NCBI RefSeq assembly: GCF_001642575.1
Contig: NZ_LXNG01000010.1
Location: forward strand, 1 to 64,000
Direction: 5' to 3'
Source: Xanthomonas floridensis
GTDB taxonomy: Bacteria > Pseudomonadota > Gammaproteobacteria > Xanthomonadales > Xanthomonadaceae
Length of the DNA: 64,000 nt
Each line of letters starts with the position of its first letter. Within the stretch, counting starts at the first letter, position 1. This document shows, one piece after another, positions 122 to 24,535 of this stretch. The position numbers were made by a program, and so were the translations under genes. Below the pieces are notes generated by a model. It was not told the DNA's origin, ran no database searches, and saw nothing but the letters and a program-made list of their open reading frames with translations.

Positions 122-157
122 GGGGTGTGATGTCCTTGGTTCTGGGGGAGTGGTGAA

Positions 158-4026: not shown

Positions 4027-4111
4027 CGCCGTGCTGCCTCACCGGAACCGCCCGCGACTGCCTTGCGGCGTTCCGGCATCTGCTCGCTCATCGACTGAAG
4101 ACAGCCTGCGA

Positions 4112-7015: not shown

Positions 7016-7021
7016 GGTCAC

Positions 7022-7198
7022 TCCCTTTGAATGTCGAATCGCTGCCGCGGGGGCGGCAGCGCATGGGTTTCATGTATGAAGCAGCGCGCAGGGCGGCGGT
7101 GGTCGGGCAAGCCCCGTTGATGCGACGGAATCGACGTGCGGCATGTCGACTCCGCGCACCGGCCGCCCGCCCGAAGGCGGCGCCGTCTCGCGTAGCGA
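7022..7198 (-). promoter_or_regulatory. Intergenic leader of the GH31 gene with a perfect hairpin
   Basis: This 177-bp gap separates the GH35 stop from the GH31 start. It contains a perfect inverted repeat at 7041-7060 (GCTGCCGC, loop GGGG, GCGGCAGC) just upstream of the GH31 ribosome binding site. No run of T follows on the minus strand, so it is not an ordinary terminator. It could stabilise a processed mRNA end or tune GH31 expression; that role is inferred only from position. Confidence 0.4.
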
Positions 7199-8941
7199 TT
7201 ACTTGTAGGTGGCGAGCTTGATCTTCAGCAATTGCGGCACGCTGGAGAAATTGACCCCGTAGTCGGTCTGGTCGCCGTTCCAGTTGCGCTGGAACTGCCA
7301 CTGCGTGCCCTCGTACACGCCCTCCTCGACGCGGTCGTAGAACATGTTGGCAGTGGCGTCGCTGGCCGGGTGCAGGGTCACGCGCGCGTGGTAGCCGGTG
7401 ACCAGGAACTCGTCCGGACCCAGCTCGGCGATCAGGGCGGCACCGATCGGCTCCGGGTTACCCGGCGGCTCGCCCTTGAACCAGAACTGCGGCACGCCAT
7501 AGGTGATGGTGGCGCCCCAGCGGTCGTTGAGCTTGAGCTCCTGCACGGCCTGGCCAGGTTCTTCGGCGGTACCGTGCAACTTGCCTTCGGACGCAGCCTT
7601 GGCGAACGGGCGCATGCCCATGCTCACCGCCTGGAAGCCCAGCGCAAACGGTGCCAGCGTTTCTTCGTTGACGTGCTTGGCGCCCAGCGGATAGTTGGAG
7701 TAACGGGTGAAGTCGATGCCGAATGCCGACCAGCCGATGCCGTCATGGCCCAACGTGGGATACAGGTAACGCGCGTATTCCGGGCGGTTGCCGGTTTCGG
7801 CGACGAACAAGGCATTGTCCGGGCGCGCGTAGCGTTCCAGCACTGTGGTGTACATGCGGTATTCCGGCATGTAGATGTCTGGCGCCAGCAGATCGATATG
7901 CGGGCCGGCGGCCTTCCACACATCCAGCACGTTGTCGGTGGGGCCACCGCTGGCGTACTGGCCGGGCTGACCCGGATTGAAGGGGCCACGCAGCGCGGCA
8001 TTGACGTACATCGGCAGCGGATATTCGGCCTTGCCGGCCTCGGTCACCTGGTCGATGTAACGGCCGATCGACCACGCATGGAAGATTTCATCGGCATCGG
8101 CGCCGAACACCTGCGCCCAGGTGCCGGGCTGCTTGTTCAAGCGCTTGATCAGCGCATCCGGGACAGGGCCGTCGAACAGCTTTTGCGCCATCGGCGAAAA
8201 GTCGCGCACGCTGCCGTAGGTGCCCGGCTCGTTTTCCGGCTGGATCATGATCACGGTGTGCTGCGGGTCGACCTGCTTCAGGTGCTGCATGAAGGCCACA
8301 AATGCCTTGCGGTCGGCATCCAGGGTGGCCTGCGCATGCGGCGACAGTGAGCCGATCGACTTGCCTTCGCGGGTGATCACGCGCGGGAAGCGCTGGTTGT
8401 CGGCCTTGACCCACAGCGGCGCGTAGGCCGGGCCATTGTTCTTCCAGGTGGCGAACCACAGCAGCACCAGCCGCACCTTGTGTTCGCGCGCCTGGGTGAG
8501 CAGCGTATCGACGAAGGAGAAGTCGAACTTGCCTTCTTCCGGTTCCACCTGCTCCCAGGCGATCGGCACCTGCACGGTGTTGGGGCCCATCACCTTGATC
8601 GCCGGCCACACCTTGTCCATCACGCCGGGATAGTTGCTGGAGTTGTTGACCTGCGCGCCCAGGATCAGGAAGGGCGCGCCATCGACCAGTAACGCATGCT
8701 TGCCGTCCTTGCTGACGAACTGCGGCATCGGCGTCTGCGTGGCAGGCGCCTGCGCAGAGGCAGACGGGGTGGCTGGCGCGTTCGCTGCAGGTTTGGCGGC
8801 GTCGGGCTTGGCAGCGCTGTCCTGCTCGCCGGATTGGCAGGCCGCCAGGGCCAGCGTCAGCGCGGGCAGCAGCAGCGGGCGCAGGCAGCGACGCGCGTTG
8901 GAACGGGAAGCTGCAGGCGTAACGGGGGAATGCATGGTCAT
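7199..8941 (-). CDS. GH35 beta-galactosidase, lipoprotein
   Basis: A 580-residue GH35 enzyme that removes the beta-1,2-galactose from the xylosyl side chain of xyloglucan. The N-terminus ends in LALAACQSG, a lipobox, so it is probably anchored in a membrane of the envelope. The barrel starts with [20 protein letters not shown]; the predicted acid/base glutamate is in [11 protein letters not shown] and the nucleophile glutamate in [14 protein letters not shown]. The start at ATG 8941 has GGAG five bases upstream and lies 11 bp after the acetylesterase stop. A GTG at 8956 overlapping that stop and an ATG at 8935 are alternatives. The galactose it frees could feed the divergent dgo operon after oxidation. 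Confidence 0.9.
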
Positions 8942-8952
8942 AAGACTCCGTG

Positions 8953-10869
8953 TCACCAGGTATCGGTGCGGAAGGGGGAAACGGGCAACTGCTCGCGATT
9001 GATCAGGTTGGCGTCGTCGGGGTTCTCGCTCCAGCCATAGCGCACCGCAACCGGCGCGCTCACCGCGTCGCTGTGCACGGTGATGCGGTCACCGTCGATC
9101 TGCGCGGTGGCCGGGTGGAAGCGTTGATCGGCACCGGCAATACGCAGGCCCTGCACCGCACCGCCGCCGCGCACCTGCAGCGCACTGCCCTGCAGATCGA
9201 ACGTCAGCACAGCCTTGTCGCCGTCGAAACGCACGCGCTTGAATACCGGCGCGCTGTACACCAGTGTTTCGCCATAGGCCACGTGCCGGGCCGCAAGCGC
9301 CAGGCGATGCCCGACATCACGCTTGTTGGTGGGATGGATGTCGGTGGGGTTGCCGATATCGATGATCACCGCCTGCCCGGTTGCCGGCAGTGCCAGCGTC
9401 TTGGATTGCGATTCGCGCAGCAGCGCCCACGGGCTCAGCTCGCCCTTGTCGCCGCCGGCCTTGAAGTTGGCCAGCTGCACCCACAAAAACGGCAGGGCCT
9501 TCTGGCCACGTTCGGCGCGCCACTGCTGGATCATGGCGGCAAACTGGTCGCGGTATTTCACCGCCCCGCTCTCGCTGGCATTGGTTTCGCCCTGGTACCA
9601 GATCACACCCTTGACCGGAAACGGCTGTAGCGGGTGAATCATCTGGTTGTACAGCAGCGTCGGCAGCTGGTTCTTGTTGTCGGCCAATGAGACGCGCACC
9701 GCCGCGGGGCGGAACTTCCAGCCACTCAATGCACGTCTGGCGCCGTCGTTGGTCTGCACGAAGCGCTGCTCATCCGGGCCATGCATGCCGCCGCCGCCGC
9801 TGAGATCTTCCACGCGCACCGCGATGTGATTGATGCCGGCCTTCAGCGCCGCGGCCGGCACCTGGTAGACGCGCGGCAGGTTCCACTGCTTTTCGGTGCT
9901 GCCCACCTGCTGGCCGTTGACGTAGGTGATGTCAGAGTCGTCGATCTGACCCACGCCCAGTGCGATGCCGGCCTTGGCTTGCGCAGCCGTCAAGGTGAAG
10001 GTGGTGCGGTACCAGGCAATGCCGTCCATGCCATCGAAGCCGCTGGCCTCCCATTGCTGGCTGGTCGGAATGCTGTCCCAGTCGCTGTCGTCGAAGTCCG
10101 GCTCACGCCATTGCGGCGTGTCGCCATCAACCTTCGGCCAGCGCGCGATGCGCTTGCCGGTGGCGGCCTGCGCCGCGGCATCGCGCTGTTTGATCGCCTC
10201 GATGGCGCCCTGGTTCTGGGTGGCGTTCATGCCCAGCGAGGCGGCGTCCATCCATGCCTCGATCGCGCTACCGCCCCAGCTGCTGTTGATGATGCCGATC
10301 GGCACGCCGGTGCTGGCGCGCAGCTCCCTGGCGAAGAAGTAGCCCACCGCAGTGAACTCGCCGGCGTTGGCAGGCGTGGCGGCTTTCCAGTCGCCACCGC
10401 TCAGGCGCGCCTGCGGCTGCACCGACCACGACTTGGGGACCTTGAAGTGACGCAGCTGCGGATCGTTGGCCGCCGCTACCGCCTGCGGGCCGTCGCTGGC
10501 CTGCGCCAACGGCCATTCCATGTTCGATTGCCCGCTGGCCAACCAGACATCGCCAACCAGCACATCGCGCACCTGCAGCTGGCCACCGTCGCCCTGCACG
10601 CTCAGTACATAGGGGCCGCCGGCAGTGTGCGCCGGCAGGCTGACCTTCCATGCTCCCTGCGCATCGGCCTTGGTGGTGGCGCGCTTGCCGTCCAGGCGCA
10701 CGCTGATGGACGCATTCGGTGTCGCCCAGCCCCATACCGGCATCGGCTGATCGCGCTGCAGCACCGCGCCATCGCTGAACAACAGCGGCAGGGTCGGCTG
10801 CGCCGCTGCGAGCGGGCTGACCAGCGCCAGGCCCAGCAGGCAGGCGCGGCGAACGAAGGTGACAGTCAT
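8953..10869 (-). CDS. CE20-type xyloglucan acetylesterase (SGNH hydrolase)
   Basis: A 638-residue secreted esterase, often named sialate O-acetylesterase by similarity. It has a signal peptide ending near LAAAQ, an N-terminal beta domain, the nucleophile motif [10 protein letters not shown], a jelly-roll insert (roughly residues 225-330, with [20 protein letters not shown]), the motif [11 protein letters not shown], and the catalytic Asp/His block [13 protein letters not shown] near the C-terminus. The combination of a split SGNH domain with an inserted jelly roll, inside a xyloglucan locus, matches the family CE20 founder described in Xanthomonas citri. It removes acetyl groups from xyloglucan galactose so that the glycosidases beside it can act. 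The start ATG at 10869 has GGAG at a normal distance. Confidence 0.88.
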
Positions 10870-10975
10870 GCAGTGATCTCCAGGGTCGGCGCGGCCAGTC
10901 GGCGCGCAACGAGGCGACGGGGGACGAAGATGGACACGGTAGGACAGCGCGGTGACACGCCCAGGAACGGCACGC

Positions 10976-13225
10976 TCATCGCGGGTCGCCGTAAAAGATG
11001 CCACGTCCGCCGGTCGCGAAATACACCCGGCCGGGAAGTCGTGGGTCACCAGTGACGCTGTACGGCTTGCCGAAGCGATGCGCATCGTCGTTGATGCGCC
11101 GCCAGTGCGCGCCTTCGTCGTCGGAGCGGAACACCCCGTCCACGCCGGCCACGCGACCGGCCAGATACAGCGCCGGTGGCGCGCCATCGCGCAGCGGCTT
11201 GCCGATGCCGAGCGAGCGTGCCTCGTCCAGTGTCGACAGGGTCTGCAGGCGGCCGTCCTGCCAGCGCATCACGCCATCTGCGGGACTGGCCAGATACACC
11301 ACACCAGCGCGCCATGGATCGGGCCGCAGCTGTGGACGCAGGCGCTCATCGCGCGCCGGCGTGCCCAGCGACTGCCCGGTATCGCGGAAACTGGCCGCAC
11401 CATCGGTACTTTCGTACAGGCGCCCACTGAGCGGATCGGCGGCGTACCAACGCTGCGCATCGACACGGTCGGCCACCACCACGGCGGTCTCCGGCAGCCC
11501 CTGCACGCGCTGCCAGTGCGTACCGAAATCCGCAGTGCGCCAATTGCCGCCCTGCGCCGGCGCCCACACCACCTGCGCCGCATCGGCGCCGATGGCGATC
11601 GTACCGGCGCCCTGCCCGGCCGGCGGTTCGCTGGCGAATGCGCGCCAGTGCGTGCCCCCATCGCGCGAATACAGCGCGCGGATTTCGTTGTTGCGGCGAT
11701 TGCGCACGGTGCCGCTGCGGACCACCGTCAACGGCGCCTGGCCGGCGGCGTCGATGCTTTCGCCATTGGTCAGGCGCGGGCCGGCGTATTGCAGCTGCGC
11801 GCTGTCCAGATCGTCGTGGCGAAAGCCATCGATATCGCCGAGCGCGCTGAGCAGATGCGCACCGGCCATCGGGCTGAGCAGATCCAGCGGCACGGTTTCT
11901 TCAAGCCCGCTGTCCTGGAACCACCACTGCAATGGCTGCCGCTTGCCGGCGAAATCGCGCAGATTGCGCGAGGCCCAGATGCCGTAGCCGGTGACGAACA
12001 GCGCGTGGTTGCTGTCGAATGGATCGATCGCCAGTGCGCCCATCCAGTGCGGCGTTGCCTGCGCGGTCCACGGCGCGGCGCTGTGGTCGAACACCGCATC
12101 GGCCAACAACGGCGTCCAGTGCTTGCCGCCATCGACGCTGCGAAACAGTTCATCGCGCGGCGTGCGCCGGCGGAAGGTGCTGGCCAGCAGCACCTGCGGA
12201 TCTTGCGGGTCCACCGCCACCGCGCCCCAGCCAAAACCATCGCCATCGGCCGGCTGCGGAATCGGGCTGATCTCGCTCCAGCGCCCCTGTGCCGGGCTGT
12301 ACTTCCACAGCGCCCCCCCGGCCATCAAGTCCGGGCCGGGCTGATCGCCGTAGCTCAGGTACCACTGGCCGTCGCTGCCACCGACCATGTGACTCGGACG
12401 CGACCCCCTAGGTTGCCCGGCCACTGCCACCCAGCTGCGGCCGGCATCGTCGGAGACATACAGACTGGTTTGCGCGGTGGAAACGCCCACATAGATGCGT
12501 GGTGTCGGACTGCCAGCGCGGCCGCTGGCGGCGTCGAACACGACAAAGGCGATCCCCACCGCCTGTTCGCGCCCGACATGGTTGCGCGCGGTGGCACCGG
12601 CCAATGCATCGGCAGGAAATCCTTCCACCCGCGCCCAGTGCGCGCCGCGATCGTCGCTGCGCCACAGGCCTGCATCACGTGAACCCAGCAACAGCACACG
12701 GCCATCGTGCGGGTCCACCGCCAACCGTTCGCCGTTGGCGCGGCCGAGCTGATTGCCGCCCAGCTTGAACGGCAGGTCGGCCCGCTCGAAGCTGCGGCCG
12801 CGATTGAACGAACGCAGCACCGCCGCATTGCCGGCACGCGCATGCATATAGGTGCCCGCTGCCAGATAGATGGCCTCGGGATTGGCGGGGTCGATGGCGA
12901 AAGCATCGATGCCCATCAGGTTCCAGTCGTCCGCACCCAGCCAGTCGGTCAGGGCAATCCACTGTTGCGCACGCGCATCCCAGCGATACGCGCCACCGAC
13001 ATCGGTGCGTGCGTATGCAAGATCGCGCTCGGCGGGATGGAACAGCACGCCGGTGACGAAGCCGCCACCGCCGATGGCGACACTGCGCCAGTGATACGGC
13101 CCTGGCGTGCCGGGCTCGGCCGCAGACACGTGGGGCGTCATGAAGGGCAACACCAGCGTCAGGCAAACAGCAGTCAGCCACGCGTGTGCTGCGGAAAGGC
13201 GGCGCTTAGTAGGCGGATCGATCAT
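10976..13225 (-). CDS. GH74 endo-beta-1,4-xyloglucanase
   Basis: A GH74 enzyme of 749 residues that cuts the glucan backbone of xyloglucan. After a signal peptide (about residues 1-40, ending near HVSAA) come two beta-propeller halves rich in Asp-box repeats, for example SDDRGAHW, SDDAGRSW, SVDGGKHW, SRDGGTHW and SDDEGAHW. YARTDVGGAYRWD near residue 72 contains the conserved N-terminal catalytic Asp of the family. The frame is open to 13330, but ATG 13225 with GGAGG ten bases upstream is the best start; ATG 13234 is too close to that sequence. As the backbone-cutting enzyme, it probably acts outside the cell or at its surface and makes oligosaccharides for the two receptors upstream. Confidence 0.9.
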   Translation of the reverse strand: MIDPPTKRRLSAAHAWLTAVCLTLVLPFMTPHVSAAEPGTPGPYHWRSVAIGGGGFVTGVLFHPAERDLAYARTDVGGAYRWDARAQQWIALTDWLGADDWNLMGIDAFAIDPANPEAIYLAAGTYMHARAGNAAVLRSFNRGRSFERADLPFKLGGNQLGRANGERLAVDPHDGRVLLLGSRDAGLWRSDDRGAHWARVEGFPADALAGATARNHVGREQAVGIAFVVFDAASGRAGSPTPRIYVGVSTAQTSLYVSDDAGRSWVAVAGQPRGSRPSHMVGGSDGQWYLSYGDQPGPDLMAGGALWKYSPAQGRWSEISPIPQPADGDGFGWGAVAVDPQDPQVLLASTFRRRTPRDELFRSVDGGKHWTPLLADAVFDHSAAPWTAQATPHWMGALAIDPFDSNHALFVTGYGIWASRNLRDFAGKRQPLQWWFQDSGLEETVPLDLLSPMAGAHLLSALGDIDGFRHDDLDSAQLQYAGPRLTNGESIDAAGQAPLTVVRSGTVRNRRNNEIRALYSRDGGTHWRAFASEPPAGQGAGTIAIGADAAQVVWAPAQGGNWRTADFGTHWQRVQGLPETAVVVADRVDAQRWYAADPLSGRLYESTDGAASFRDTGQSLGTPARDERLRPQLRPDPWRAGVVYLASPADGVMRWQDGRLQTLSTLDEARSLGIGKPLRDGAPPALYLAGRVAGVDGVFRSDDEGAHWRRINDDAHRFGKPYSVTGDPRLPGRVYFATGGRGIFYGDPR

Positions 13226-13345
13226 GGCGATCATTCCTCCGGCTCCCATCGCGATCGACGGCAGCGCCATCGATAGGAAAAACACCGGCCCGACGAGCTG
13301 CCTGCACAGCTCGCCGAACCGGAGACGCACTTCCTACGGCGCGTT

Positions 13346-16069
13346 CTACAGGCTGGCCCGCAAGGTCAGGCCATACCGACGATCGTTGATCACAAAGTCG
13401 CGGTAGCGCGACTCGTTACCCAGGTAGCTTTCGCGACGGGTATCGAGCAGATTCACGCCATCCAGCGAAATCGACCACACATCATTGATGTTGAAACGCA
13501 GCGAGGCATCCAGCTGGCCGAAGCCCTTGTTGTAGACCGGCAGATTCCCGGTGCCGTTGCCCGCGGTGGTCACCAGCCAGTCGCTGCGCCAGTTGTAGGC
13601 CACACGGCCCTGGAAGCGCGAGGTTTCGTAGCTGACGATCGCGTTGTAGCTGTTCTTGGACAGGCCTTCCAGTGGCACCGTCAACGACTGGCCGTTGGTG
13701 TCGGTGGCGGTGGGGCTCGGCGCCTCGCTGTCGACGTAGGTGTAGTTGGTCTGCAGGCCGAAGCCGCTCAGCCAGCCCGGCAGGAAGTCGAAGAACTGCG
13801 TGTAGCCCAGTTCCGCACCACGGATCTTGCCGGCATCGCCGTTGACCGGGCGGGTGATCTGCCACACCTGGCCGTCGTACACCTCGTTGAACACGCTGTC
13901 GGCGATGAAGCCTTCCACCTTCTTGTAGAACAGGGTGCCGTACATCATCGAGCCCTGGCCGAAGTACCACTCCAGCGCAGTGTCGAACTGGTCGGCCTTG
14001 ACCGGCTCCAGATCGGGATTACCCGCCCTGCCGGTGAAAGTCGAGGCGCCGGTGGACGACGTGCCGGTGCTTAGGCTCAGGTTCGGGTTGAGCCTGTCGA
14101 AGGTCGGCCGCGAGATACCGCGCGAGGCCGCAAAGCGCCACTGCAGCTGATCGCTCAGCATCCAGCGCAGGTTCAAGCTCGGCAGCACGTCGGTGTAGGT
14201 CTGCTGTGCATCCACCGGGATCAGACCACCGCCTTCGGCATCGGTCCCGGTGCGCACGCCCTGTGAGCCTACCTCGGTCCGCACCACACGCACACCGATG
14301 TTGCCGTCGAACGGGATGTCGCCATCCACGCCGAAGCGCAGCACGCCGTAGGCCGCGTAGGTCTTCTCGTTCTGCGTGTTGATGTTGTTCGGCGCAAACT
14401 CCAGGGGCGTGCCGCCGAAGGTGGCCAGCGTCTGCTCGTAGTTGGCCACGGCCGCATCGGAAGCGGTCAGGGTCGGCCCAAAGGTGCTGCTCTTGCCGCG
14501 GAAGAAATCGGTGATCGGGTTGGTCACCACGCCCACGGTGGGGAACTGCGAGAACGGCGTACCGACGCAGCCGTTGATGCACATGAAGCGGAACACGCCA
14601 CCCTTGGTCTCGGCATCGCGGTCGGTATAACGCACACCGGCCTTGAAGCTGCGCACGAAATCGCTGTCGAACGCCAGATCCATGTCGGAACGCCAGGCAA
14701 ACTCGGTGCCCTTGTTGTCGTCCTTGTTATCCAGGTGCCAACGCCAACCGTTGTAGTTGTCCTGGTTGGCCAGGAAACCTTCGGCGCCGCTGGCGTCGGT
14801 CACCGACAGCTTGGGCAGGTCGCCACGGAAGTCGACGTTGAAGAACGGCGTGTTATTCAGGCCGGTCGCCACGATGTAGCGCGTGCCGGTGGTGGTGGCA
14901 TCGACGTACTGGAAGTCGGTGCTCAGGGTCAGCTTTTCGTTGACCGTCCACTTGGCGCCCAGCGAGTAGTCGGTGGTCACCGAATGCCGCTCGGTCAGGC
15001 TGGTGTTGGAGTCGGCCGGCACGTTCTGGAAGGTGCCGTTGACGAACTCGTTGCGGTCGTTGACCTGGATGCCGGGCGTGCCCTGCATCGGGTTGGCGCC
15101 GGTCAACGCGAAGAACGAATAATCGTGCCAGCTGAAGTCGTAGTCCGACCGCAGCACCTGCGTATAGACCTCCACCGCATCGTTCGGACGCCATTGCATC
15201 GCAAAGGCGCCGGTCTTGCGCTCGCGCTCGCCGACGGTGGTGTTGATGCCGGCGCCGTGCGGCACCGACACGCCCTGCCCTTCGTAGCCCGGCAGATCGG
15301 TCTGGGTGTACCACGGCTCGATCGAGATGGTGTCCTGACGGAACGGGCTCTTCTGCTGCGAGTAGTTCACCAGGATGCCGATCTCGCCGATGCCGGTCTG
15401 CCAGCGATCGCTGAACAGGCCAGAGAACGCCGGCTTGCCGTCGTCGGCGAGGTCGTAATAGTTGTACTGCACGCTGCCGGCGATCTTGCGGCCGTCGTAA
15501 TCGAACGGCAGACGCGTGCGCAGGTCGACAGTGCCGCCCAGACCACCTTCGATCATGTCGGCAGACGGGTTCTTGTACACGTTGACGCCGCCGAGCAACT
15601 CGGCCGACACGTCTTCGAAGCTCAGGCCACGGCCGTCGTTGGCGGTGAAGATATCGCGGCCATTGAGCTCGGTGCGCACCTGGGTCAGGCCGCGGATGGC
15701 GATCGAGCTGCCTTCACCGTAGTTGCGCGAAATCTGGATGCCGGAGATGCGCTGCAGCGCCTCGGCGACGTTGTTGTCGGGCAGCTTGCCGATGTCTTCG
15801 GCGACGATGGAGTCGACGATCTGCTCGGCGTTCTGCTTGACCAGCTGCGCCTTGGTGACGCTGCTGCGGGTACCGGTGACCTGCACCGTGTCCAGCTGCT
15901 GGGTGGTGGCATCCGACGCCGGTGCAGCGGTGGTGGTCGCATCCTGCGCATAGGCCTGCGCGCTCAGCAGCGTGGCTACACTGATGGCCATCACGGAGCG
16001 GCGGAAATCACGGATCGAACGCTGACCCACAGCCCGGCCTGCCGGAATGTGGCGATGTTGCACTGACAT
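13346..16069 (-). CDS. TonB-dependent receptor, second of the xyloglucan pair
   Basis: A 907-residue outer-membrane receptor of the large type used by xanthomonads for glycan import. The signal peptide ends near AQAYAQ (about residue 42). The plug domain has DTVQVTGTRSSV, QIVDSIVAEDIGKLPD and NVAEALQRISGIQISR; the barrel carries repeated aromatic strands and ends in RRYGLTLRASL, a normal outer-membrane C-terminus. ATG 16069 is chosen because GGGAG lies just upstream and the signal peptide follows; the frame itself is open to 16375. It is related to the receptor gene next to it and precedes the GH74 gene. Substrate specificity for xyloglucan oligosaccharides is inferred from the locus. Confidence 0.9.
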   Translation of the reverse strand: MSVQHRHIPAGRAVGQRSIRDFRRSVMAISVATLLSAQAYAQDATTTAAPASDATTQQLDTVQVTGTRSSVTKAQLVKQNAEQIVDSIVAEDIGKLPDNNVAEALQRISGIQISRNYGEGSSIAIRGLTQVRTELNGRDIFTANDGRGLSFEDVSAELLGGVNVYKNPSADMIEGGLGGTVDLRTRLPFDYDGRKIAGSVQYNYYDLADDGKPAFSGLFSDRWQTGIGEIGILVNYSQQKSPFRQDTISIEPWYTQTDLPGYEGQGVSVPHGAGINTTVGERERKTGAFAMQWRPNDAVEVYTQVLRSDYDFSWHDYSFFALTGANPMQGTPGIQVNDRNEFVNGTFQNVPADSNTSLTERHSVTTDYSLGAKWTVNEKLTLSTDFQYVDATTTGTRYIVATGLNNTPFFNVDFRGDLPKLSVTDASGAEGFLANQDNYNGWRWHLDNKDDNKGTEFAWRSDMDLAFDSDFVRSFKAGVRYTDRDAETKGGVFRFMCINGCVGTPFSQFPTVGVVTNPITDFFRGKSSTFGPTLTASDAAVANYEQTLATFGGTPLEFAPNNINTQNEKTYAAYGVLRFGVDGDIPFDGNIGVRVVRTEVGSQGVRTGTDAEGGGLIPVDAQQTYTDVLPSLNLRWMLSDQLQWRFAASRGISRPTFDRLNPNLSLSTGTSSTGASTFTGRAGNPDLEPVKADQFDTALEWYFGQGSMMYGTLFYKKVEGFIADSVFNEVYDGQVWQITRPVNGDAGKIRGAELGYTQFFDFLPGWLSGFGLQTNYTYVDSEAPSPTATDTNGQSLTVPLEGLSKNSYNAIVSYETSRFQGRVAYNWRSDWLVTTAGNGTGNLPVYNKGFGQLDASLRFNINDVWSISLDGVNLLDTRRESYLGNESRYRDFVINDRRYGLTLRASL

Positions 16070-16403
16070 GGTGCTCCCTCCCAGGACGCATGTACTTCTT
16101 GTTTTAGCGGACCGGTGCGCGAACGCCCTGCCCGTCGTTGTTGCTGGCCCGCATCTGCCATCCGGCCGTTGCCGGGAGTGCCGATGCGTGGTCGCCCTGG
16201 CGGGCAGACCTGCGGCTGCGGCGGGAGCATAGGGCGCGGCCGTCATGCCACACCAATGAAATATTCCTGGAAAGGTATTCGTTAAAACTATAGCAATCGT
16301 GTGAAACCTGACAGGTCCGGCATTACGGGCCGTCCCTGCCAGTCGGCAGGAAACGGCCTCGACCGTGCAACGCACTTCACAGTCGAGGCGTGACTGCGCG
16401 CAC
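16070..16403 (-). promoter_or_regulatory. Region between the two receptor genes: hairpins and promoter
   Basis: This 334-bp gap has no gene. Near the end of the upstream receptor are two inverted repeats, CCTGCC/GGCAGG (16335-16350) and CCTCGAC/GTCGAGG (16357-16388), which could attenuate transcription. Closer to the downstream receptor is the 41-bp composite motif at 16253-16293. A weak promoter can be read on the minus strand: TTGGTG at 16256-16251 and TATGCT at 16231-16226, spacer 19. This suggests that the second receptor and the hydrolases have their own regulated promoter. Confidence 0.5.
16253..16293 (-). promoter_or_regulatory. Composite regulatory motif, copy A
   Basis: Read towards the receptor gene the 41 bp are CTATAG-N7-GAATACC-N7-GAATATTTCATTGG. 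The same three blocks with the same N7 spacers occur at 19535-19575 and 20582-20622, while the N7 spacers differ in sequence. The last block overlaps the predicted -35 region. The spacing resembles the two-site arrangement of LysR-type regulators (T-N11-A boxes), so the LysR gene at 19591-20562 is the obvious candidate to bind it. This copy lacks the ATTC half of the first palindrome (CTATAG instead). Confidence 0.6.
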
Positions 16404-19334
16404 TTACCAGTTCATGCGCAGCACCAGCGAGTAGCGCCGGTCGTTGACGAACGACGAGCGGGTATACAGCCGCGGGTCGACTTCGCCGCCTTCGTACGAG
16501 GTCGGGCCCATCAGCACCTTGGTCACGGTGTTGGTCAGGTTGTTGGCCTGCACGCCCAGCTGCAGATGCTCGTTGAAGCGGTAAAAGAACGAGCCATCGA
16601 GCTGACCATAGTCGTCGGCCCAGGTCGGCAGGCGGGTCGCCGCGTCGCTGGTGGTCAACAGGTAGCGCGAGCGCCAGTTGTAGGCCAGGCGCAACGACAG
16701 CGGACCTTTCTCGTAGATGCCGGCCAGGTTGTAGCTCCGCCGCGACAGGCCTTCCAGTGGCAGGTCGACACCGTCCACGGTGGTACGGGTGTAAGGATCG
16801 ATGGCGGTATTGGCGCCGCCCTCGCTGTCGACGTAGGTGAAGTTGGCATTGACGCCGAAGCCGCTCAACCAGCCCGGCAGGCTGTCGAAGAACTGCGTGT
16901 AGCCCACTTCTGCACCACGGATGGTGCCTTCATCCGTGTTGTACGGCCGGGTCACCAGCCACTGGCGGTTGTCGTAGGTCTCGGCGCGGGTCTGGGTGGA
17001 GAAGTAGTCCTTGACCTTCTTGTAGAACAGCGTGGTGTAGAGCATGTCGCTGCTGTCGAAGTACCACTCCAGCGCGGTGTCGAACTGGTTGGCCCGCATC
17101 GGCTTGAGGGTCGGATTGCCCGCGGTGCCGACAAAGTTGGTCGCGTTGCCGGCGTCGTCGGTTTCCACGTTCAGCAGCACATACGGCTGCAGCTGGGTGT
17201 AATCCGGGCGCGCCATCGCCTTGGACGCGGCAAAGCGCCATTGCAGGTTGTCGGTGAAACGCACACGCAGGTTCAGGCTGGGCAGCACGTTGGTGTAGCT
17301 GCCCTGCGAGTTGTTGTCGAAATACTGGCCGGTATAGCGGGCCTGCAGTTCGGGCGAGACGTTCAGGCCGGACAGATCCTGGAATTGACCGAAGCCTTCG
17401 GCCTGGGTCTTGGTCTGCACGACGCGTATGCCGATGTTGCCGTCCACCGGCACGCCCAGTGCCTCATCGTTGCCGAAGTACAGCGCCGCGTAGGCGGCCT
17501 GGGTGCGCTCGAACTGGCGGTTGGTGTCCTGCGGCTGGTAGGTATCCGGCGCCCAACCGGAACCGCGCAGGTCCACGATCTGCTGCTGCAACAGCTCCGA
17601 GGCACGCCGGTAATTCCTGACCAGCCCGCCATTGGGCACGATCAAGGTGGTCGGCACGTTCACGCCGCCGCGGAAGAAGTTGGAGAAGGTGAACTGCGAG
17701 GACTCGTTTGGCAGGTACTGCGACATGTTGGCCAGGCCATTGGCGCTACCGGGGATGGCCGCCCAGTTGTCCGACAACACGCCCCAGTTGTAGCCGGAGT
17801 TCTTGTTGGTCTGGTTGCGGTCGGTGGCGCGCATGCCGAAGCGCGCAAAGCGCAGCCAGCTGCTGTCCTGGAAGGTGTATTCCAGATCCACACGGGTGGA
17901 CAGCTGACGCCCGCGGTTGTGGCCCAGGTGGTCCATCGCCGCCGCCCAGAAGTAATTGGACGGGTCCTGGGTAAAGCCCTGGTTGGCGATCTGTACGGTC
18001 GGATACTTGCCCGATACGTCATAGGTCAGGCCAGGCAGATAGGTCGCGCTGAACACGGTGAAGTCCAGCTGGTCGTTCTCCGACTGCACCAGCTGCACAT
18101 CGCCCTTGATCTGCAGGTTGTCGTTGAAGTAATGGCTGAAACCCACCGACAGGTCGGAGGTGGTGGTCTGCTGATCCGAATAGCGGTTGTCGGTATTGAA
18201 GCGCACGCCGTCGCCGGTCAGCAGGCCGCGCCAGGAGTTGGACACCGGCGAACCGCGCTGGAACACGCCGTCCTGGTCGTACTGGAAGGTCGTCCCCGGC
18301 GCCGGGCTGATGCTGTTGTTGCTGTCGTTGAAGAACGCCGCGCGCTCCTGCCAGTTCATGTCGTAGCGCGAGCGCAGGTATTGCGCATAGATCTCGGTCT
18401 GGTCGCTGGGCCGCCACTGGAACGCAGCAGCGATACCGTCGCGCTTGCGTTCAAAATCCAGCTGGCGCCAGTTGACCCCGCCCGGCACGAACACTTCGCT
18501 GCGGCCGCTGCCGGCCAGCACTGCATCGTCGGTACGGCGCACATACGGCTCGACCTGGATGCCGTCCGAGCGGGTCGCCAGTTCCGAATGGGCGATGTCG
18601 ATCATGAAGCCCATCTCGCCGATACCGGTCTGCCAGCGGTCGCTGAACAGGAACGACGCCGACGGCTTGTACTTCTTGCTCATGTCGCCGTAGTTGACGT
18701 CGACATTGCCGCCGACGATGCGGCCCGGATTGTCGAACGGCATGCGCGTGCGCAGGTTGACCGTGCCACCCAGACCGCCTTCGATGATTTCCGCGGAAGG
18801 GTTCTTGTACACGTCCACGCCAGCCATCAGTTCGGCCGGCACGTCTTCGAAGCTCAGGCCACGGCCGCTGGCGGCGCTGAAGATGTCGCGGCCATTGAGT
18901 TCGCCGCGCACCTGGGTCAGGCCACGGATCATCACGCCGCTGCCTTCGGCCGAAAAGTGATCGGGGTCGCTGCGTGCGGCGAAGTGGTCGATGGTCACAC
19001 CGCTGACGCGCTGCAGGGTTTCGGTGACGCTACGGTCGGGCAGCGCGCCGATGTCTTCGGCACTGACCGAATCCACGATCTGCGCGGCATCGCGCTTGAT
19101 CGTTTGCGACTTGATCAGGCTGGCGCGCACGCCGCGCACCTCCACCGTGTCCAGGTCGACCGCGCTGCTGGCTTTGCCTGAGGGTGCGTTCTGCTGGGAC
19201 GCGGCCTGCTGGGCATACGCCGGCGCAGCGAGCAGCAGCCCGATGCTGATGGCCATGGCCGAACGACGCAACGGTGGCAGACAACGCGCGCGCACGCCCG
19301 TTCCTGCCGAGGCATGGCTTGAAAACTTGGACAT
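16404..19334 (-). CDS. TonB-dependent receptor, first of the xyloglucan pair
   Basis: A 976-residue TonB-dependent outer-membrane transporter. The signal peptide ends near APAYAQQ (about residue 42). Plug landmarks are DLDTVEVRGVRASL, QIVDSVSAEDIGALPD, TLQRVSGVTIDHF and MIRGLTQVRGELNGRD; the C-terminus RRYSLVLRMNW ends in the aromatic residue needed for barrel insertion. ATG 19334 follows GGGAGGG at normal distance. It is the most upstream gene of the minus-strand xyloglucan cluster and similar in layout to the receptor that follows. Import of xyloglucan oligosaccharides is inferred from the neighbouring hydrolases. Confidence 0.9.
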   Translation of the reverse strand: MSKFSSHASAGTGVRARCLPPLRRSAMAISIGLLLAAPAYAQQAASQQNAPSGKASSAVDLDTVEVRGVRASLIKSQTIKRDAAQIVDSVSAEDIGALPDRSVTETLQRVSGVTIDHFAARSDPDHFSAEGSGVMIRGLTQVRGELNGRDIFSAASGRGLSFEDVPAELMAGVDVYKNPSAEIIEGGLGGTVNLRTRMPFDNPGRIVGGNVDVNYGDMSKKYKPSASFLFSDRWQTGIGEMGFMIDIAHSELATRSDGIQVEPYVRRTDDAVLAGSGRSEVFVPGGVNWRQLDFERKRDGIAAAFQWRPSDQTEIYAQYLRSRYDMNWQERAAFFNDSNNSISPAPGTTFQYDQDGVFQRGSPVSNSWRGLLTGDGVRFNTDNRYSDQQTTTSDLSVGFSHYFNDNLQIKGDVQLVQSENDQLDFTVFSATYLPGLTYDVSGKYPTVQIANQGFTQDPSNYFWAAAMDHLGHNRGRQLSTRVDLEYTFQDSSWLRFARFGMRATDRNQTNKNSGYNWGVLSDNWAAIPGSANGLANMSQYLPNESSQFTFSNFFRGGVNVPTTLIVPNGGLVRNYRRASELLQQQIVDLRGSGWAPDTYQPQDTNRQFERTQAAYAALYFGNDEALGVPVDGNIGIRVVQTKTQAEGFGQFQDLSGLNVSPELQARYTGQYFDNNSQGSYTNVLPSLNLRVRFTDNLQWRFAASKAMARPDYTQLQPYVLLNVETDDAGNATNFVGTAGNPTLKPMRANQFDTALEWYFDSSDMLYTTLFYKKVKDYFSTQTRAETYDNRQWLVTRPYNTDEGTIRGAEVGYTQFFDSLPGWLSGFGVNANFTYVDSEGGANTAIDPYTRTTVDGVDLPLEGLSRRSYNLAGIYEKGPLSLRLAYNWRSRYLLTTSDAATRLPTWADDYGQLDGSFFYRFNEHLQLGVQANNLTNTVTKVLMGPTSYEGGEVDPRLYTRSSFVNDRRYSLVLRMNW

Positions 19335-19508
19335 CTGAATCCCTCCCAGGACGCAAGACGACTGAAGACTGGTTGTCGCGGCGCAAGGCGCGCCGCGTGA
19401 TCGTGCGGAACAGGCGCTGGCGCCGGTTCCACCTCCTGCTGCATGGCGGATTGGCCGCCGATCACCTGCCCGACTTCACGTGCGCTTCAGCGTGCGATCT
19501 GGCGCACA

Positions 19509-19538
19509 GATATAGGCGCACGGTCTAGCGCCAGCCAA
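19509..19538 (-). promoter_or_regulatory. Predicted promoter of the first xyloglucan receptor
   Basis: On the minus strand TTGGCT (19538-19533) and TATATC (19514-19509) are separated by 18 bp. The -35 hexamer overlaps the last block of the composite motif, as expected for an activator-dependent promoter with a weak -35. No transcription start is known here; the call rests on sequence match only. Confidence 0.4.
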
Positions 19539-19575
19539 TGAAAAATTCACAGGCTGGTATTACCCCACGGAATAG
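19535..19575 (-). promoter_or_regulatory. Composite regulatory motif, copy B
   Basis: Read towards the receptor gene the 41 bp are CTATTC-N7-TAATACC-N7-GAATTTTTCATTGG. Block order and spacing are identical to the copies at 16253-16293 and 20582-20622. It sits 200 bp upstream of the receptor start and between that gene and the stop of the LysR gene, so it can only serve the receptor. Confidence 0.6.
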
Positions 19576-19590
19576 AAATGGAAGAGCCTG

Positions 19591-20562
19591 TTAAGCAAGG
19601 GATTCCGGCCCACGCAGGGCCGGGTACAGCCGCCTGGCGGTGGTGCGCAGCGCCTGCAAAATGCGCTCGGCACCCGGCGGGAGGATGTAGTCGCGCCGAC
19701 GGATGATGCCAAACGACTCCATCCGCACGCCCAGCTCGATCGGCAGCACGGTCAGCAGCTTGGCCTGGATCAGCGGCGCCACCGATTCCACCGGCAGGGC
19801 GGTCAGCATGTCGGTGCCGCGCAGCAGCGTGGAGGTGACCGGCAGCGACGAGGTCTCAATGGCATTGGTTGGCGTCTGCACGCCGTGCTCCATGAACATC
19901 GAGTCCAGCCGCGCGCGCAGCACGCTGTCGGCCGGCGGCAGGATCCAGCCGTGCCGCACCAGGTCCGCATGCTGCAGGCCGACCCGGCTGGCCAGCGGGT
20001 GGCCGGCACGGGCGATCACCGAATGCGGCTCGTCAGCCAGCGGCTCGAACTCCAGCTCGCCCACCCCTTCCGGCCCCAGGATGCGGCCGATCACGATGTC
20101 CAGCTGGCCATCCAGCAACTTGGCCACCAGCGGACGGCTGTAGTCCATCTCCACCCGCACTAGGATGTCCGGAAACTCACGCTTGACCTCGGCAATGGCC
20201 TGCGGCACCAGGTTGGTCCCCGGGTTGACCACGGTGCCGATCGACGCCTGCCCCATCCGCCCGGCACGCAGCGCCGCAATTTCTTCCTGCGCACGGCCGA
20301 TCTCCGACATCGCCGCGCGTGCGCGCCGGATCAGCACATGCCCGTACCAGGTCGGCTCGACCCCACGGGCATGCCGCTCGAACAGTTTCACTCCCAGCAT
20401 GTCTTCCATCTCGGCCAGCAGCTTGGAGGCGGCCGGTTGCGTCATGCTGGCGGCCTCGGCCGCGCGCAGCACCGAGCGTTGTTCGTGCAGATGCAGCAGC
20501 AGCAACAGCTGACGGGTTTTCAGGCGGGCTGCGTTGAACCAGGGAGTACCGGAATTTGCCAT
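19591..20562 (-). CDS. LysR-type regulator of the galactonate/xyloglucan region
   Basis: A 323-residue LysR-type regulator. The N-terminal winged helix-turn-helix covers about residues 10-70 (KTRQLLLLLHLHEQRSVLRA, AASMTQPAASKLLAEME) and the substrate-binding domain about 95-305 (ASIGTVVNPGTNLVPQAI, DIVIGRILGPEGVGELEF). The long N-terminus and HTH resemble the GbpR/galactose-regulator branch. ATG 20562 is chosen because the 25 codons upstream in frame are not conserved-looking and would run through the motif region. It is divergent from the dgo operon and lies between it and the xyloglucan receptors, with a copy of the 41-bp motif 20 bp before its start, suggesting control of both sides and of itself. 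Confidence 0.88.
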   Translation of the reverse strand: MANSGTPWFNAARLKTRQLLLLLHLHEQRSVLRAAEAASMTQPAASKLLAEMEDMLGVKLFERHARGVEPTWYGHVLIRRARAAMSEIGRAQEEIAALRAGRMGQASIGTVVNPGTNLVPQAIAEVKREFPDILVRVEMDYSRPLVAKLLDGQLDIVIGRILGPEGVGELEFEPLADEPHSVIARAGHPLASRVGLQHADLVRHGWILPPADSVLRARLDSMFMEHGVQTPTNAIETSSLPVTSTLLRGTDMLTALPVESVAPLIQAKLLTVLPIELGVRMESFGIIRRRDYILPPGAERILQALRTTARRLYPALRGPESLA

Positions 20563-20581
20563 GGGGTGCGGTTGCGGCCGT

Positions 20582-20622
20582 GTATTCGTCGGAGGAATAG
20601 AATATGCCGAAAATTTCATTTG
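20582..20622 (+). promoter_or_regulatory. Composite regulatory motif, copy C (dgo side)
   Basis: On the plus strand the 41 bp are GTATTC-N7-GAATAGA-N7-GAAAATTTCATTTG. This copy has the complete palindrome TATTC-N7-GAATA, a typical LysR-type box. It points towards dgoA, 355 bp away, and lies just upstream of the divergent regulator gene, which fits joint control of the operon and autoregulation. Confidence 0.6.
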
Positions 20623-20977
20623 CAGCACATATCTCACCGCGCGAGGCTAGCGCTCGCCGCAGCAGGAGCCCCTACCTCCCGGGCGCGGCCAGAACAGACG
20701 TGACCCGCCTCGACCAGGCGATAACACGCACGCCATGAACGCGGAGGTGGACGACGATGACCGCAATTTGCCGGCCACTTGCGGGCCGTAGCGGCATGCT
20801 TGTGCATGCCGGGCGTGCCCATCGGCATTGCATCGCGGCGCTGCTACCGCATGGCGTTTTTCTCCCCGGATTGCGCATTGGCGGCGACCTGTCGTCTGCG
20901 CAGTTGCGCAAGCTCCCCCGACGTTGCCGGCCACTCGGTCGCCAACGGCCGCTTTCCGCTCTATCGCGAGTAACCGC
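20623..20977 (+). promoter_or_regulatory. Long leader of the dgo operon with two hairpins
   Basis: This 355-bp stretch before dgoA holds no convincing gene; an open frame reaches back to 20828 but its codons look random. It contains two adjacent inverted repeats: CCGCAA/TTGCGG (20761-20784) and CGGCATGC-TTGT-GCATGCCG (20792-20811). If transcription starts near the composite motif, the mRNA would carry an untranslated leader of about 300 nucleotides with these structures. Confidence 0.35.
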
Positions 20978-21610
20978 ATGACCTCAGACACCACCGCCAG
21001 CCTGTTCGCCCTGCCGCTGATCGCCATCCTGCGTGGCATCACGCCGGAAGAGACGCCCGACCATGTCGGCGCACTGATCGACGCCGGCTTCGATGCGATC
21101 GAGATTCCGCTCAATTCGCCACGCTGGGAGCAAAGCATCGCCCTGGCCCAGCAGACCTATGGCGAACGCGCCTGGATCGGTGCCGGCACCGTGCTGCGCA
21201 ACGAAGACGTGGACACCCTGGCCGAGATCGGTGCGCGCTTCATCGTCACTCCGAATACGCGCCCCAGCCTGATCCGCCATGCGGTGTCGCGCGGGCTGAC
21301 CGTGGTGGCCGGCTTTGCCACCGCCAGCGAGGCCTTCGACGCCATCGACGCCGGCGCCACCATCCTGAAGCTGTTCCCGGCGGCCACCTATGGCGCGGCG
21401 CATGTGCGCGCCTTGCGCTCGGTGCTGCCCAAGCACATCCCGGTCTACGTGGTCGGCGGCGTCAGCCCGCAGACCCTGGCCGGCTTCATGGCCCAGGGCG
21501 CGGCCGGTGCCGGCATCGGCGGCGAACTGTACAAACCCGGCCAATCCCTCGAAACAACCCAGACGCATGCACGCGCGTTCGTGCAGGCCTACCAGGAACT
21601 GCAAGGATGA
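20978..21610 (+). CDS. dgoA: 2-dehydro-3-deoxy-6-phosphogalactonate aldolase
   Basis: A 210-residue class I aldolase of the KDPG/KDPGal family that splits 2-dehydro-3-deoxy-6-phosphogalactonate into pyruvate and glyceraldehyde 3-phosphate, the last step of the De Ley-Doudoroff route. The Schiff-base lysine is K131 in ATILKLFPA, the catalytic glutamate is E42 in [10 protein letters not shown], and R19 lies in AILRGI. The start ATG 20978 places these at the usual positions. Its last codons overlap the start of dgoD by 4 bp (ATGA), so the operon is translationally coupled. Confidence 0.93.
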
Positions 21611-22755
21611 AGATCACCCGCCTCACCACCTACCACGCTGCACCGCGCTGGCTGTTCCTCAAGGTCGAAACCGACGAGGGCATCACCGGTTGGGGCGAGC
21701 CGGTCATCGAAGGCCGCGCGCGCAGCGTGGAAGCGGCCGTGCACGAACTGGCCGGCTACATCGTCGGCAAGGATCCGGCACGCATCAACGACCTGTGGCA
21801 GACCATGTACCGCGCCGGTTTCTACCGCGGCGGCGCCATCCTGATGAGCGCCATCGCCGGCATCGACCAGGCGCTGTGGGACATCAAGGGCAAGGCGCTG
21901 GGCGTGCCGGTGTACGAGCTGCTGGGCGGGCTGGTACGCGATCGCATGAAGACCTATCGCTGGGTCGGCGGCGACCGCCCCGGCGCCATCATCCAGCAGA
22001 TCACCGACTACCGTGCGCTGGGCTTTGACACCTTCAAGTTCAACGGCACCGAGGAAATGAAGCTGATCGACAGCGCGCGCGCCGTCGATGCAGCGGTGGT
22101 CAAGGTCGCCGAAATCCGCGAAACCTTTGGCAATGCCATCGATTTCGGCATCGACTTCCACGGCCGCGTCGGCGCGCCGATGGCCAAGGCGCTGCTGCGC
22201 GAGCTGGAGCCGTTCAAGCCGCTGTTCGTCGAGGAACCGGTGCTGGCCGAGCAGGCCGAGTACTATCCGCGCCTGGCCGCGAGCACCTCGATTCCGCTGG
22301 CGGCCGGCGAGCGCATGTTCTCGCGCTTCGAGTTCAAGAACGTTCTGTGCGCCGGTGGCATCGGGATGGTGCAGCCGGACCTGTCGCATGCCGGCGGCAT
22401 CACCGAGTGCGTCAAGATCGCCGCGATGGCCGAAGCCTACGATGTCGGCTTCGCCCCGCACTGCCCGCTCGGCCCGATTGCATTGGCCGCCTGCCTGCAC
22501 GTGGACTTCGTTTCGCACAACGCGGTACTGCAGGAACAGAGCATCGGCATCCACTACAACGAAGGCGCCGACCTGCTCGATTACGTCATCAATAAAGACG
22601 ATTTTCAGTGTGTCGATGGCAGTATCGCTGCCCTGCCCAAGCCCGGGCTCGGTGTGGAGATCGACGAAGCCATGCTCAAGCGCGCCAACGAAAATCCGCC
22701 GGACTGGCGCAACCCGGTCTGGCGTCACAGCGATGGCAGCATCGCCGAATGGTGA
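21607..22755 (+). CDS. dgoD: D-galactonate dehydratase
   Basis: A 382-residue enolase-superfamily enzyme that dehydrates D-galactonate to 2-dehydro-3-deoxygalactonate. The N-terminus [19 protein letters not shown] is typical of DgoD. Metal-ligand regions are [25 protein letters not shown] and [12 protein letters not shown], and the catalytic histidine lies in [13 protein letters not shown]. Length agrees with the family (about 382). It overlaps dgoA upstream and the lactonase-like gene downstream, so the four genes form one operon. Confidence 0.95.
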
Positions 22756-23660
22756 GCACGCCCGAACACACTGCCGCGCTGGCGGTCGACAGCCGCTGCA
22801 CACACGGCGAAGGCGTGCTGTGGTGCGAACAGCGCCAGGCGCTGTACTGGGTCGACATCGTTGAAAAGCGCCTGTGGCGGCACCATCCGGCCACGGCACG
22901 ATCACGCTACTGGACACTGCCCGATCGCCCGGGCTGCCTGGGCCTGATGGACGATGGCCGCGTGCTGGTCGCGTTGGCCAAGGCAGTGGGGGTGGTCGAT
23001 CCGGACAACACGGACGCCGACATGCTGCCATTCGAAAAATTGGCCGATGTGGAGGCGGACAACCCGCTCACCCGCAGCAACGATGGCCGCGTCGACCGGC
23101 ACGGCAATCTGGTGTTCGGCACCATGGACGAACACGACAGCAAGGCCGCCCGCGGCGCGTTCTACCAGTTTTCGCTGCGGCACGGCTTGCGTGCGCTGCC
23201 GTTGCCGGGTGTGTCCATTCCCAACTCGATCTGCTTCAGCCTTGACGGCCGCACCTTGTATTACTGCGATTCGGTGCGCCCGCAGATCCTGTGCTGCGAT
23301 TACGACCCGGAGACGGCGCAGACCAGCAATACGCGCGTGTTCACCACCCTGGATCGCGACGACGCCGAACCGGATGGATCGATCATCGACAGCGAAGGCC
23401 ACCTGTGGAATGCGCAATGGCGCGCCTCGCGCGTGGTGCGCTATCGACCCGACGGCAGCGTGGAGCGCATCGTGCAATTGCCGATCAAGCACCCCACCTG
23501 CAGTGCGTTCGGCGGCGCGGCCCTGGATCGCCTGCACGTGATCTCCTCGCGCCTGGACCATAGCGCCGAAGAACTCGCGCGCATGCCCGAAGCCGGCAGC
23601 CTGTTCGTGTGCGACCTCGCCATCGCCGGCCTGCCCGAAAGCCGGGTGGCCAGCGCATGA
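22749..23660 (+). CDS. SMP-30/gluconolactonase family lactonase (probable galactonolactonase)
   Basis: A 303-residue six-bladed beta-propeller protein of the SMP-30/gluconolaconase/LRE family. Visible motifs are [21 protein letters not shown] near the N-terminus (metal-binding Glu), [21 protein letters not shown], and [20 protein letters not shown], which match the metal-binding loops. Its place between dgoD and dgoK suggests it opens D-galactono-lactone to galactonate, which would connect galactose oxidation to the operon; activity on the galactose lactone is inferred. The start is ATG 22749, overlapping the dgoD stop by 7 bp; GTG 22752 is an alternative. Confidence 0.85.
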
Positions 23661-24535
23661 TCGCCGTCGACTGGGGGACCAGCAGCCTGCGCGCCTACCT
23701 GCTCGACGCGAGCGGCACAGTGCTGGAACAGCGTCGCGGCAGCGACGGCATCCTCGCCTGCCAGGGACGCTTCGCCGACGTGCTGAGCGCATTGATCAAC
23801 GGCTGGGAGGGCCCGGTACTGCTGTCGGGCATGATCGGCAGCCGCAATGGCTGGGTCGAACAGGCCTACCTGCCCTGCCCCACCGACACTGTGGCCCTGG
23901 CAGCGGCCATGCGCCGCTACGCCGACCTGCTGCCCGGCCGCACGTTGTGGTTCGTGCCCGGCGTCAGCACCGGCGAGCGGACCGGCGTGCCCGACGTCAT
24001 GCGCGGCGAGGAGACCCAGCTGGTCGGCCTGCTCGCCAGCCTGGGCCATGGCGACCACGTGGCCTGCCTGCCCGGCACGCACAGCAAATGGGCCACCCTC
24101 GCCAACGGCCAGCTGACCGACTTCGCCACCGTCATGACCGGCGAACTGTATGCAGTGCTATGCCAGCACAGCATCCTCGGCAAGCTGATCCCCGACGCCC
24201 ACGCCGAGCTCGACGCGCCTGCATTCCTGCTCGGCATCGAGCGCAGCGCCGAACCGGGCGGGCTGAGCCACCATCTGTTCGGCACCCGCACGCTAGGCCT
24301 GTTCGACCGCCTCAGCGCACAGGCCCTGCCCTCGTACCTGTCCGGCCTGTTGATCGGCCACGAACTGCGCGAACACCGCGGCACGCACGCCACCGTGCAC
24401 CTGGTCGGCAGCCCCGCGCTGGCGCAGCGCTACGCGCTGGCGTTGCAACATGTAGGCGTTGACAGCCGGTTGCACCCGGAAGATCTGGCTGCGGCAGGGT
24501 TGTTCGCGCTGGCCAGGCAGCGCGGGCTGGCTTGA
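23657..24535 (+). CDS. dgoK: 2-dehydro-3-deoxygalactonokinase
   Basis: A 292-residue kinase that phosphorylates 2-dehydro-3-deoxygalactonate at C6, giving the substrate of DgoA. The N-terminal ATP-phosphate loop is VDWGTSSLRAYLLD and further DgoK landmarks are LLSGMIGSRNGWVEQAYLPCP, GVPDVMRGEETQLVG, CLPGTHSKWATL and FATVMTGELYAVL. ATG 23657 overlaps the lactonase stop by 4 bp. It is the last gene of the operon. Confidence 0.95.
   Translation: MIAVDWGTSSLRAYLLDASGTVLEQRRGSDGILACQGRFADVLSALINGWEGPVLLSGMIGSRNGWVEQAYLPCPTDTVALAAAMRRYADLLPGRTLWFVPGVSTGERTGVPDVMRGEETQLVGLLASLGHGDHVACLPGTHSKWATLANGQLTDFATVMTGELYAVLCQHSILGKLIPDAHAELDAPAFLLGIERSAEPGGLSHHLFGTRTLGLFDRLSAQALPSYLSGLLIGHELREHRGTHATVHLVGSPALAQRYALALQHVGVDSRLHPEDLAAAGLFALARQRGLA

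Follow-up and report, generated by a model that had tools for sequence, protein, structure and literature searches.

Three copies of a 41-bp composite motif were located in a stretch of 64,000 nucleotides from Xanthomonas floridensis (contig NZ_LXNG01000010.1, positions 1 to 64,000, hereafter the window). Two of them lie before the genes of TonB-dependent receptors in a xyloglucan locus, and the third lies between the gene of a LysR-type regulator, GamR by gene order, and the divergent dgo operon of galactonate breakdown. The three copies are very likely the sites of GamR, which would thereby place import, side-chain removal and galactonate breakdown in one locally confined regulon. The motif, which had been derived from these three sites, consists of three blocks separated by two spacers of seven bases (N7). 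The coordinates and strands given in the initial annotation proved right, with no mismatch at any copy:

Site 1, 16253..16293, minus strand: before TonB receptor 2; dyad 16276-16292 (imperfect), second block 16253-16266, ATG 183 bp further on.
Site 2, 19535..19575, minus strand: before TonB receptor 1; dyad 19558-19574, second block 19535-19548, ATG 200 bp further on.
Site 3, 20582..20622, plus strand: between gamR and dgoA; dyad 20583-20599 (TATTC-N7-GAATA), second block 20609-20622, exact match.

The motif is rare. When up to three mismatches were allowed, the window contained only the three matches and 100 dinucleotide shuffles of it contained none. Exact matches in the whole genome (5,254,357 bases, 58 contigs) were limited to the same three, and the reversed control gave none. 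Because the strict pattern came from the three sites themselves, the genome was also scanned with a looser pattern of 18 positions and up to three mismatches; among the sites of relatives, its recovery was 99 of 111 for the receptor type and 77 of 77 for the regulator type. Again only the three sites were returned; they span no more than 4.4 kb, with the LysR gene among them. No further target elsewhere in the genome stood out with a still looser pattern, which gave three look-alikes with two mismatches against one match of the reversed control. The full TATTC-N7-GAATA palindrome that had been claimed for one copy was perfect in site 3 alone (5/5 pairs), and 4/5 and 3/5 pairs were formed in sites 2 and 1, respectively. 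The earlier statement that each copy points towards the gene it controls held family-wide for the receptor genes. Site 3 is 19 bp from the regulator ATG and 355 bp from dgoA; since this places it in a divergent promoter region, dgo need not be its only target. Although the mechanical open reading frame (ORF) of the regulator runs to 20637, across site 3, the distance from gene start to site varied among relatives from about 12 to 107 bases, and site 3 is thus very probably non-coding.

The conservation of the motif was determined in two samples. The first comprised 149 genomes drawn from the family, including that of the window, and the regulator was detected in 26 of them at a threshold of E 1e-40 (best matches 68-100% identical). 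In all 25 relatives examined, a site with up to three mismatches was placed directly upstream of the regulator and pointed away from it, and at least one additional match (up to six mismatches) was present on the other side of the regulator. The regulator-type pattern, with up to three mismatches, occurred in 27 of the 149 genomes, namely in 26 of 26 with the regulator and in 1 of 123 without it, and the reversed pattern occurred in none. A control pattern, in which the spacing from dyad to second block was one base off, was found in three genomes, two of them through a shifted reading of the same sites. The one matching genome without the regulator (G092) owed its match to a receptor-type site, with an ORF behind it whose start resembles that of receptor 1, and beside this site (L164, contig C294, 1-600) only the 26 regulator residues 298-323 were left. 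The element adjoining this remnant looks like a transposase fragment. G092 is a relative that lost the regulator and kept the receptor-type site. Of the 26 regulator-bearing genomes, 14 also carried an additional LysR gene from this subfamily (41-44% identical); in the 5 of these 14 loci that were scanned, the paralogue (42% identical) had no site at up to six mismatches.

The second sample consisted of 80 loci kept of 95 candidates from a scan of genome contigs, and covered Xanthomonas, Stenotrophomonas, Pseudoxanthomonas, Luteimonas, Lysobacter, one Rhodanobacter and some bins. The regulator-upstream site was present with 0-4 mismatches in 77 of the 80 loci; the exceptions were L128 (7 mismatches), L141 (8) and L100, where only 10 bases before the gene were present. 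A weight matrix was built from 41 distinct regulator-upstream sites of 46 loci outside Xanthomonas, with no receptor site in the training set. With the blocks only, the receptor sites of the window scored 32.9 (site 1) and 30.1 (site 2), compared to -4.8 for the next place and 13.6 for the best of 200 column-permuted matrices. With the spacers included, the scores were 30.8 and 16.7, the next place reached -9.0 and the permuted best was 2.4. In this way, the two receptor sites, and no other place in the window, were singled out by a matrix of regulator sites from other genera. Based on a second matrix (53 distinct regulator sites from all genera, cut-off 8), 195 places were counted in the 80 loci, compared to 1.25 per permuted matrix (20 matrices). 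Among these, 116 were not at the regulator, and 111 of the 116 were downstream on the strand of the regulator with a score of at least 14. Nearly all of these further sites (110 of 111) were followed, at no more than 900 bp, by a match to a window protein, which was receptor 1 in 65 cases, receptor 2 in 40 and the GH74 protein in five; downstream of the remaining one (L130), no match to the 12 window proteins was found. Both kinds of site were present in 75 of the 80 loci, and the nearest divergent gene among the window proteins was dgoA in 75, dgoD in one and none in four. The earlier proposal of one regulator for glycan uptake and galactonate catabolism was thus supported by conservation, placement and co-occurrence, so far as sequence can test it.

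Two loci showed deviations of their own. In L099, the region of the receptor-1 site, some 1160-1225 bases past the start of the regulator, was rearranged, with an inverted repeat CATGTAAAAACATG between the dyad-like start and the second block. In G060 (L029/L061), the gamR match contained one in-frame TAG and the upstream site was intact.

The binding of GamR is a prediction, and a different DNA-binding protein of the neighbourhood (e.g. another LysR-type regulator such as LcrX, or a general carbon-source factor) might own the sites. In X. axonopodis pv. glycines, according to the available part of PMC6965072, the overproduction of LcrX raises a xylosidase as well as galactonate dehydratase and galactose dehydrogenase. 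However, the motif follows gamR across the family with the frequencies given above, and the exception keeps a remnant of gamR. In 77 of the 80 loci, moreover, a site lies beside gamR, in contact with the predicted promoter of this gene, and outside the gamR locus no site was found in this genome. Another binder is improbable on these grounds, and GamR remains the preferred owner of the three sites.

The internal structure of the element was revealed by the relatives. In 100 distinct receptor-type sites the mean information per column was 1.39 bits in the blocks and 0.28 bits in the spacers, and the values were 1.79 and 0.80 bits in 64 distinct regulator-type sites. The contrast was smaller inside Xanthomonas, with 1.77 versus 1.08 for receptor 1 (21 sites) and 1.86 versus 1.33 for receptor 2 (16 sites). 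The comparison of blocks and spacers in the upstream regions of relatives, proposed together with the motif, therefore showed blocks conserved well above spacers. The claim that only blocks and spacing are conserved needs amendment in one respect: the blocks were kept and the spacers much less so, but the second spacer of the regulator/dgo copy was partly conserved. This spacer seems to hold the -10 of the regulator gene itself. The conserved element also extended past 41 bp: it includes a CAT block (+6 to +9) and, some 21 bases beyond the last block, a -10-like hexamer. At +6 to +9, 54 of the 100 receptor-type sites had CATG or AATG, and 52 of the 64 regulator-type sites had CATA. The -10-like hexamer started at +20 to +22 in 75 of the 100 distinct receptor-type sites, and on the dgo side 74 of 77 relatives had nAnnCT at position +21 or +22. 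On the opposite strand, TAnnCT touched the dyad in 65 of 77 relatives, which would fit the -10 of the regulator; its CT occupies dyad-edge columns and its TA otherwise free spacer columns. The following promoter elements were predicted:

20643..20648, plus strand: predicted -10 of the dgo operon (GAGGCT), from the conservation of nAnnCT.
20599..20604, minus strand: predicted -10 of gamR (TATTCT), touching the dyad of site 3, from the conservation of TAnnCT.
19509..19514, minus strand: predicted -10 of receptor 1 (TATATC), from the hexamer conserved in receptor-type sites.
16226..16231, minus strand: predicted -10 of receptor 2 (TATGCT), from the same conserved hexamer.

When the start site was assumed 7 bases past the predicted -10, the dyad centre was estimated at about -65 and the second block at about -47 to -34. 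In the initial annotation, the last block overlapped the predicted -35 of both receptors. With the predicted -10 elements, the three sites fit the layout of a LysR-type activator site, in which a T-N11-A dyad at about -65 precedes a second block that extends to the -35, followed by a -10.

From this layout we infer that the dyad TATTC-N7-GAATA, as a T-N11-A box at about -65, would be the recognition half for GamR, and that the block GAAWWTTTCATTKG, reaching -35, would be the activation half. A galactose-derived inducer would cause the bound tetramer to engage the activation half, and RNA polymerase would then be recruited to the -10 about 21 bases downstream. Site 3 would serve the divergent dgo operon and probably governs gamR too, because its dyad touches the predicted promoter of the regulator. 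Site 2 would serve receptor 1, and site 1 would serve receptor 2. Beyond receptor 2, site 1 may also serve the xyloglucan hydrolase genes that follow on the same strand. In the window, boxes were found only at the two receptors and at gamR/dgo, and the gaps between minus-strand genes with clear starts were 15, 177 and 85 bp, with one 4-base overlap, an arrangement that would be compatible with a long transcript behind receptor 2. According to the available part of PMC8245568, XAC1768-XAC1777 of X. citri rise in response to xyloglucan oligosaccharides.

The same three sites could be bound by GamR mainly as a repressor, or with a sign that differs by promoter, so that the receptors would be released and not activated. 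The sequence does not reveal the sign of regulation, and at the predicted gamR promoter, which is in contact with the site 3 dyad, repression would be the usual outcome for a LysR-type regulator. A dyad near -65 with a second block at the -35 of the target is, however, the layout of an activator according to the accessible text of PMC5603801, and the papers citing GamR, in their available parts, call it a positive regulator. Release from repression is thus slightly less probable still than another binder, and activation by GamR is retained here. Chance or a recent duplication of a promoter segment, which the position of all three sites inside 4.4 kb could suggest, was rejected as next to impossible, since the shuffles gave no match, and the spacers differ and the blocks persist down to 68% regulator identity.

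Besides the effect of LcrX, several observations weigh against a GamR regulon of this extent. The dyad before receptor 2 is poor, with the three pairs mentioned above, and the co-occurrence of motif and regulator (Fisher p = 3.5e-28) is uncorrected for kinship. A 17-pair terminator-like hairpin with a T-rich tail was found at 13285-13322 on the minus strand, 24 bases past the stop of receptor 2. Its position between receptor 2 and the GH74 gene argues against simple read-through. The hairpin could lower the expression of the hydrolases relative to the receptor, or the GH74 gene could start further in. Five relatives with a box directly before the GH74 gene also argue against the long transcript behind receptor 2. 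The promoter/terminator scan of 1-16400 gave 2 versus 1.9 and 11 versus 8.9 in shuffles, which is about background, and the hairpin alone was used. It was also observed that the hairpin sits inside the mechanical start of the GH74-like ORF. In this genome the box is not known to have a galactose dehydrogenase gene under it. A short-chain dehydrogenase ORF stood between site and dgoA in six of six relatives inspected (L093, L101, L107, L112, L118 and L137), which were drawn from 24 relatives with a dgoA match more than 800 bp from the regulator; one of the ORFs was classified by NCBIfam. No close relative of this dehydrogenase was found in the genome of the window, where the best match was 40% identical and located elsewhere. 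A dehydrogenase remnant in the 355-bp leader before dgoA was considered and dropped, as the matches were at chance level only.

The remaining point of this kind concerns hrpG and hrpX. GamR was reportedly described by Rashid et al. in 2016 as a LysR-type regulator of galactose metabolism in Xanthomonas oryzae pv. oryzae. In the present genome, an AraC-type gene (about 477 codons) beside a divergent OmpR-type gene is taken by us to mark the hrpG-hrpX gap. A motif copy in this putative gap was sought and rejected, since the best score of -7.0 was reached by 14.8% of 500 shuffles and thus equals background. Yet in X. oryzae, according to the available part of PMC7831014, GamR binds the hrpG/hrpX region, and the mutant was not clearly less virulent. 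The hrpG/hrpX site may be of another kind, or the effect of GamR may be indirect or species-specific. A wider proposal is evenly poised in our judgement: a GamR box found throughout the family, whose activation half is conserved in sequence, would define a one-locus regulon (xyloglucan import and hydrolysis plus galactonate breakdown), and the hrp effect would be indirect, species-specific or exerted through another kind of site. The regulator, its role in galactose metabolism and the xyloglucan locus were already known; the defined box, its placement at both receptors and its conservation across the family appear to be new in the literature searched, where searches by topic and gene number brought up no other paper recognised as reporting them. 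In the available parts of the literature citing GamR, receptor control or a binding sequence is not stated, and the original GamR paper of 2016 may itself contain a site.

The genes around the three sites were assigned as follows:

19591..20562, minus strand: LysR-type regulator, GamR by gene order, 323 aa (PF00126 HTH_1 and PF03466 LysR_substrate above cut-offs).
16404..19334, minus strand: TonB-dependent receptor 1 (TIGR01782).
13346..16069, minus strand: TonB-dependent receptor 2 (TIGR01782).
158..13330, minus strand: run of xyloglucan hydrolase genes behind receptor 2 (Pfam).
20978..24535, plus strand: dgo operon (NCBIfam, with dgoA and dgoD above cut-offs; Pfam, dgoK = PF05035), made up of dgoA 20978-21610, dgoD 21607-22755, SMP-30 lactonase 22752-23660 and dgoK 23657-24535.

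The hydrolase run contains a BNR-repeat protein in the place of GH74, a SASA esterase in the place of CE20, GH35/DUF5597, GH31, GH95 and an FGGY kinase, which corresponds in order to XAC1770-XAC1774 plus xylose genes; GH74 and CE20 were assigned by position together with the BNR repeats and the SASA domain, not by family-specific models. The order of the window (two TonB receptors, GH74, CE20, GH35, GH31, GH95) is that of the Xanthomonas xyloglucan utilization locus (XyGUL). According to the available part of PMC8245568, the X. citri locus spans XAC1768-XAC1774 and is followed by xylose genes, GamR is XAC1767 beside it, and X. oryzae is without most of the locus. By this gene order the LysR gene of the window is GamR, the equivalent of XAC1767, and its control of galactose breakdown is therefore already known. 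Neighbouring dgo genes overlap by 4 bases each, and the De Ley-Doudoroff genes of galactonate dehydratase, 2-keto-3-deoxygalactonate (KDGal) kinase and 2-keto-3-deoxy-6-phosphogalactonate (KDPGal) aldolase are all present together. No known RNA element was detected at Rfam thresholds in 16000-21100. Only one sequence, the LysR-type regulator of tsaMBCD, was found as a solved relative of the regulator (E < 1e-25).

Compared with known systems, the control logic is of a familiar kind. By its gene order, which matches that of XAC1767 in X. citri, the regulator is the same as GamR of X. oryzae pv. oryzae, which is tied to galactose metabolism, but the targets cited for it, in the sources as available, are galactose metabolism and hrpG/hrpX and not the xyloglucan receptors. 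The XyGUL of X. citri agrees in gene order and shows the induction by oligosaccharides mentioned above; in the accessible text of PMC8245568, however, GamR is proposed to act on hrpX, and its control of the locus is not stated. The generic LysR promoter (PMC5603801, available part) likewise combines a divergent regulator gene with a T-N11-A dyad at about -65 and a second site at about -35, but activation sites are described there as lacking a conserved sequence, whereas the second block is the best conserved part here. The present element is thus a helpful example of a LysR activation half-site whose sequence is strongly conserved, and the exact site makes direct tests possible. A sugar regulator proposed to join cell-wall breakdown and virulence control in Xanthomonas very probably also runs the xyloglucan locus. 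If so, galactose set free from xyloglucan would promote its own import in a feed-forward loop. The conservation of the site in Stenotrophomonas, Pseudoxanthomonas, Luteimonas and Lysobacter suggests a metabolic and not a virulence origin of the circuit. The xylan locus of Xanthomonas differs in being under a LacI-type repressor, XylR, and not a LysR regulator, according to the available part of PMC13282271. The carbohydrate-utilization loci of Xanthomonas resemble the present one in having TonB receptors under sugar control (PMC1790865, available part). In X. campestris, XCC1749 and XCC1750 were both induced by polygalacturonate and arabinose in the same source, and to guess from the gene numbers alone, these two may be the same receptors.

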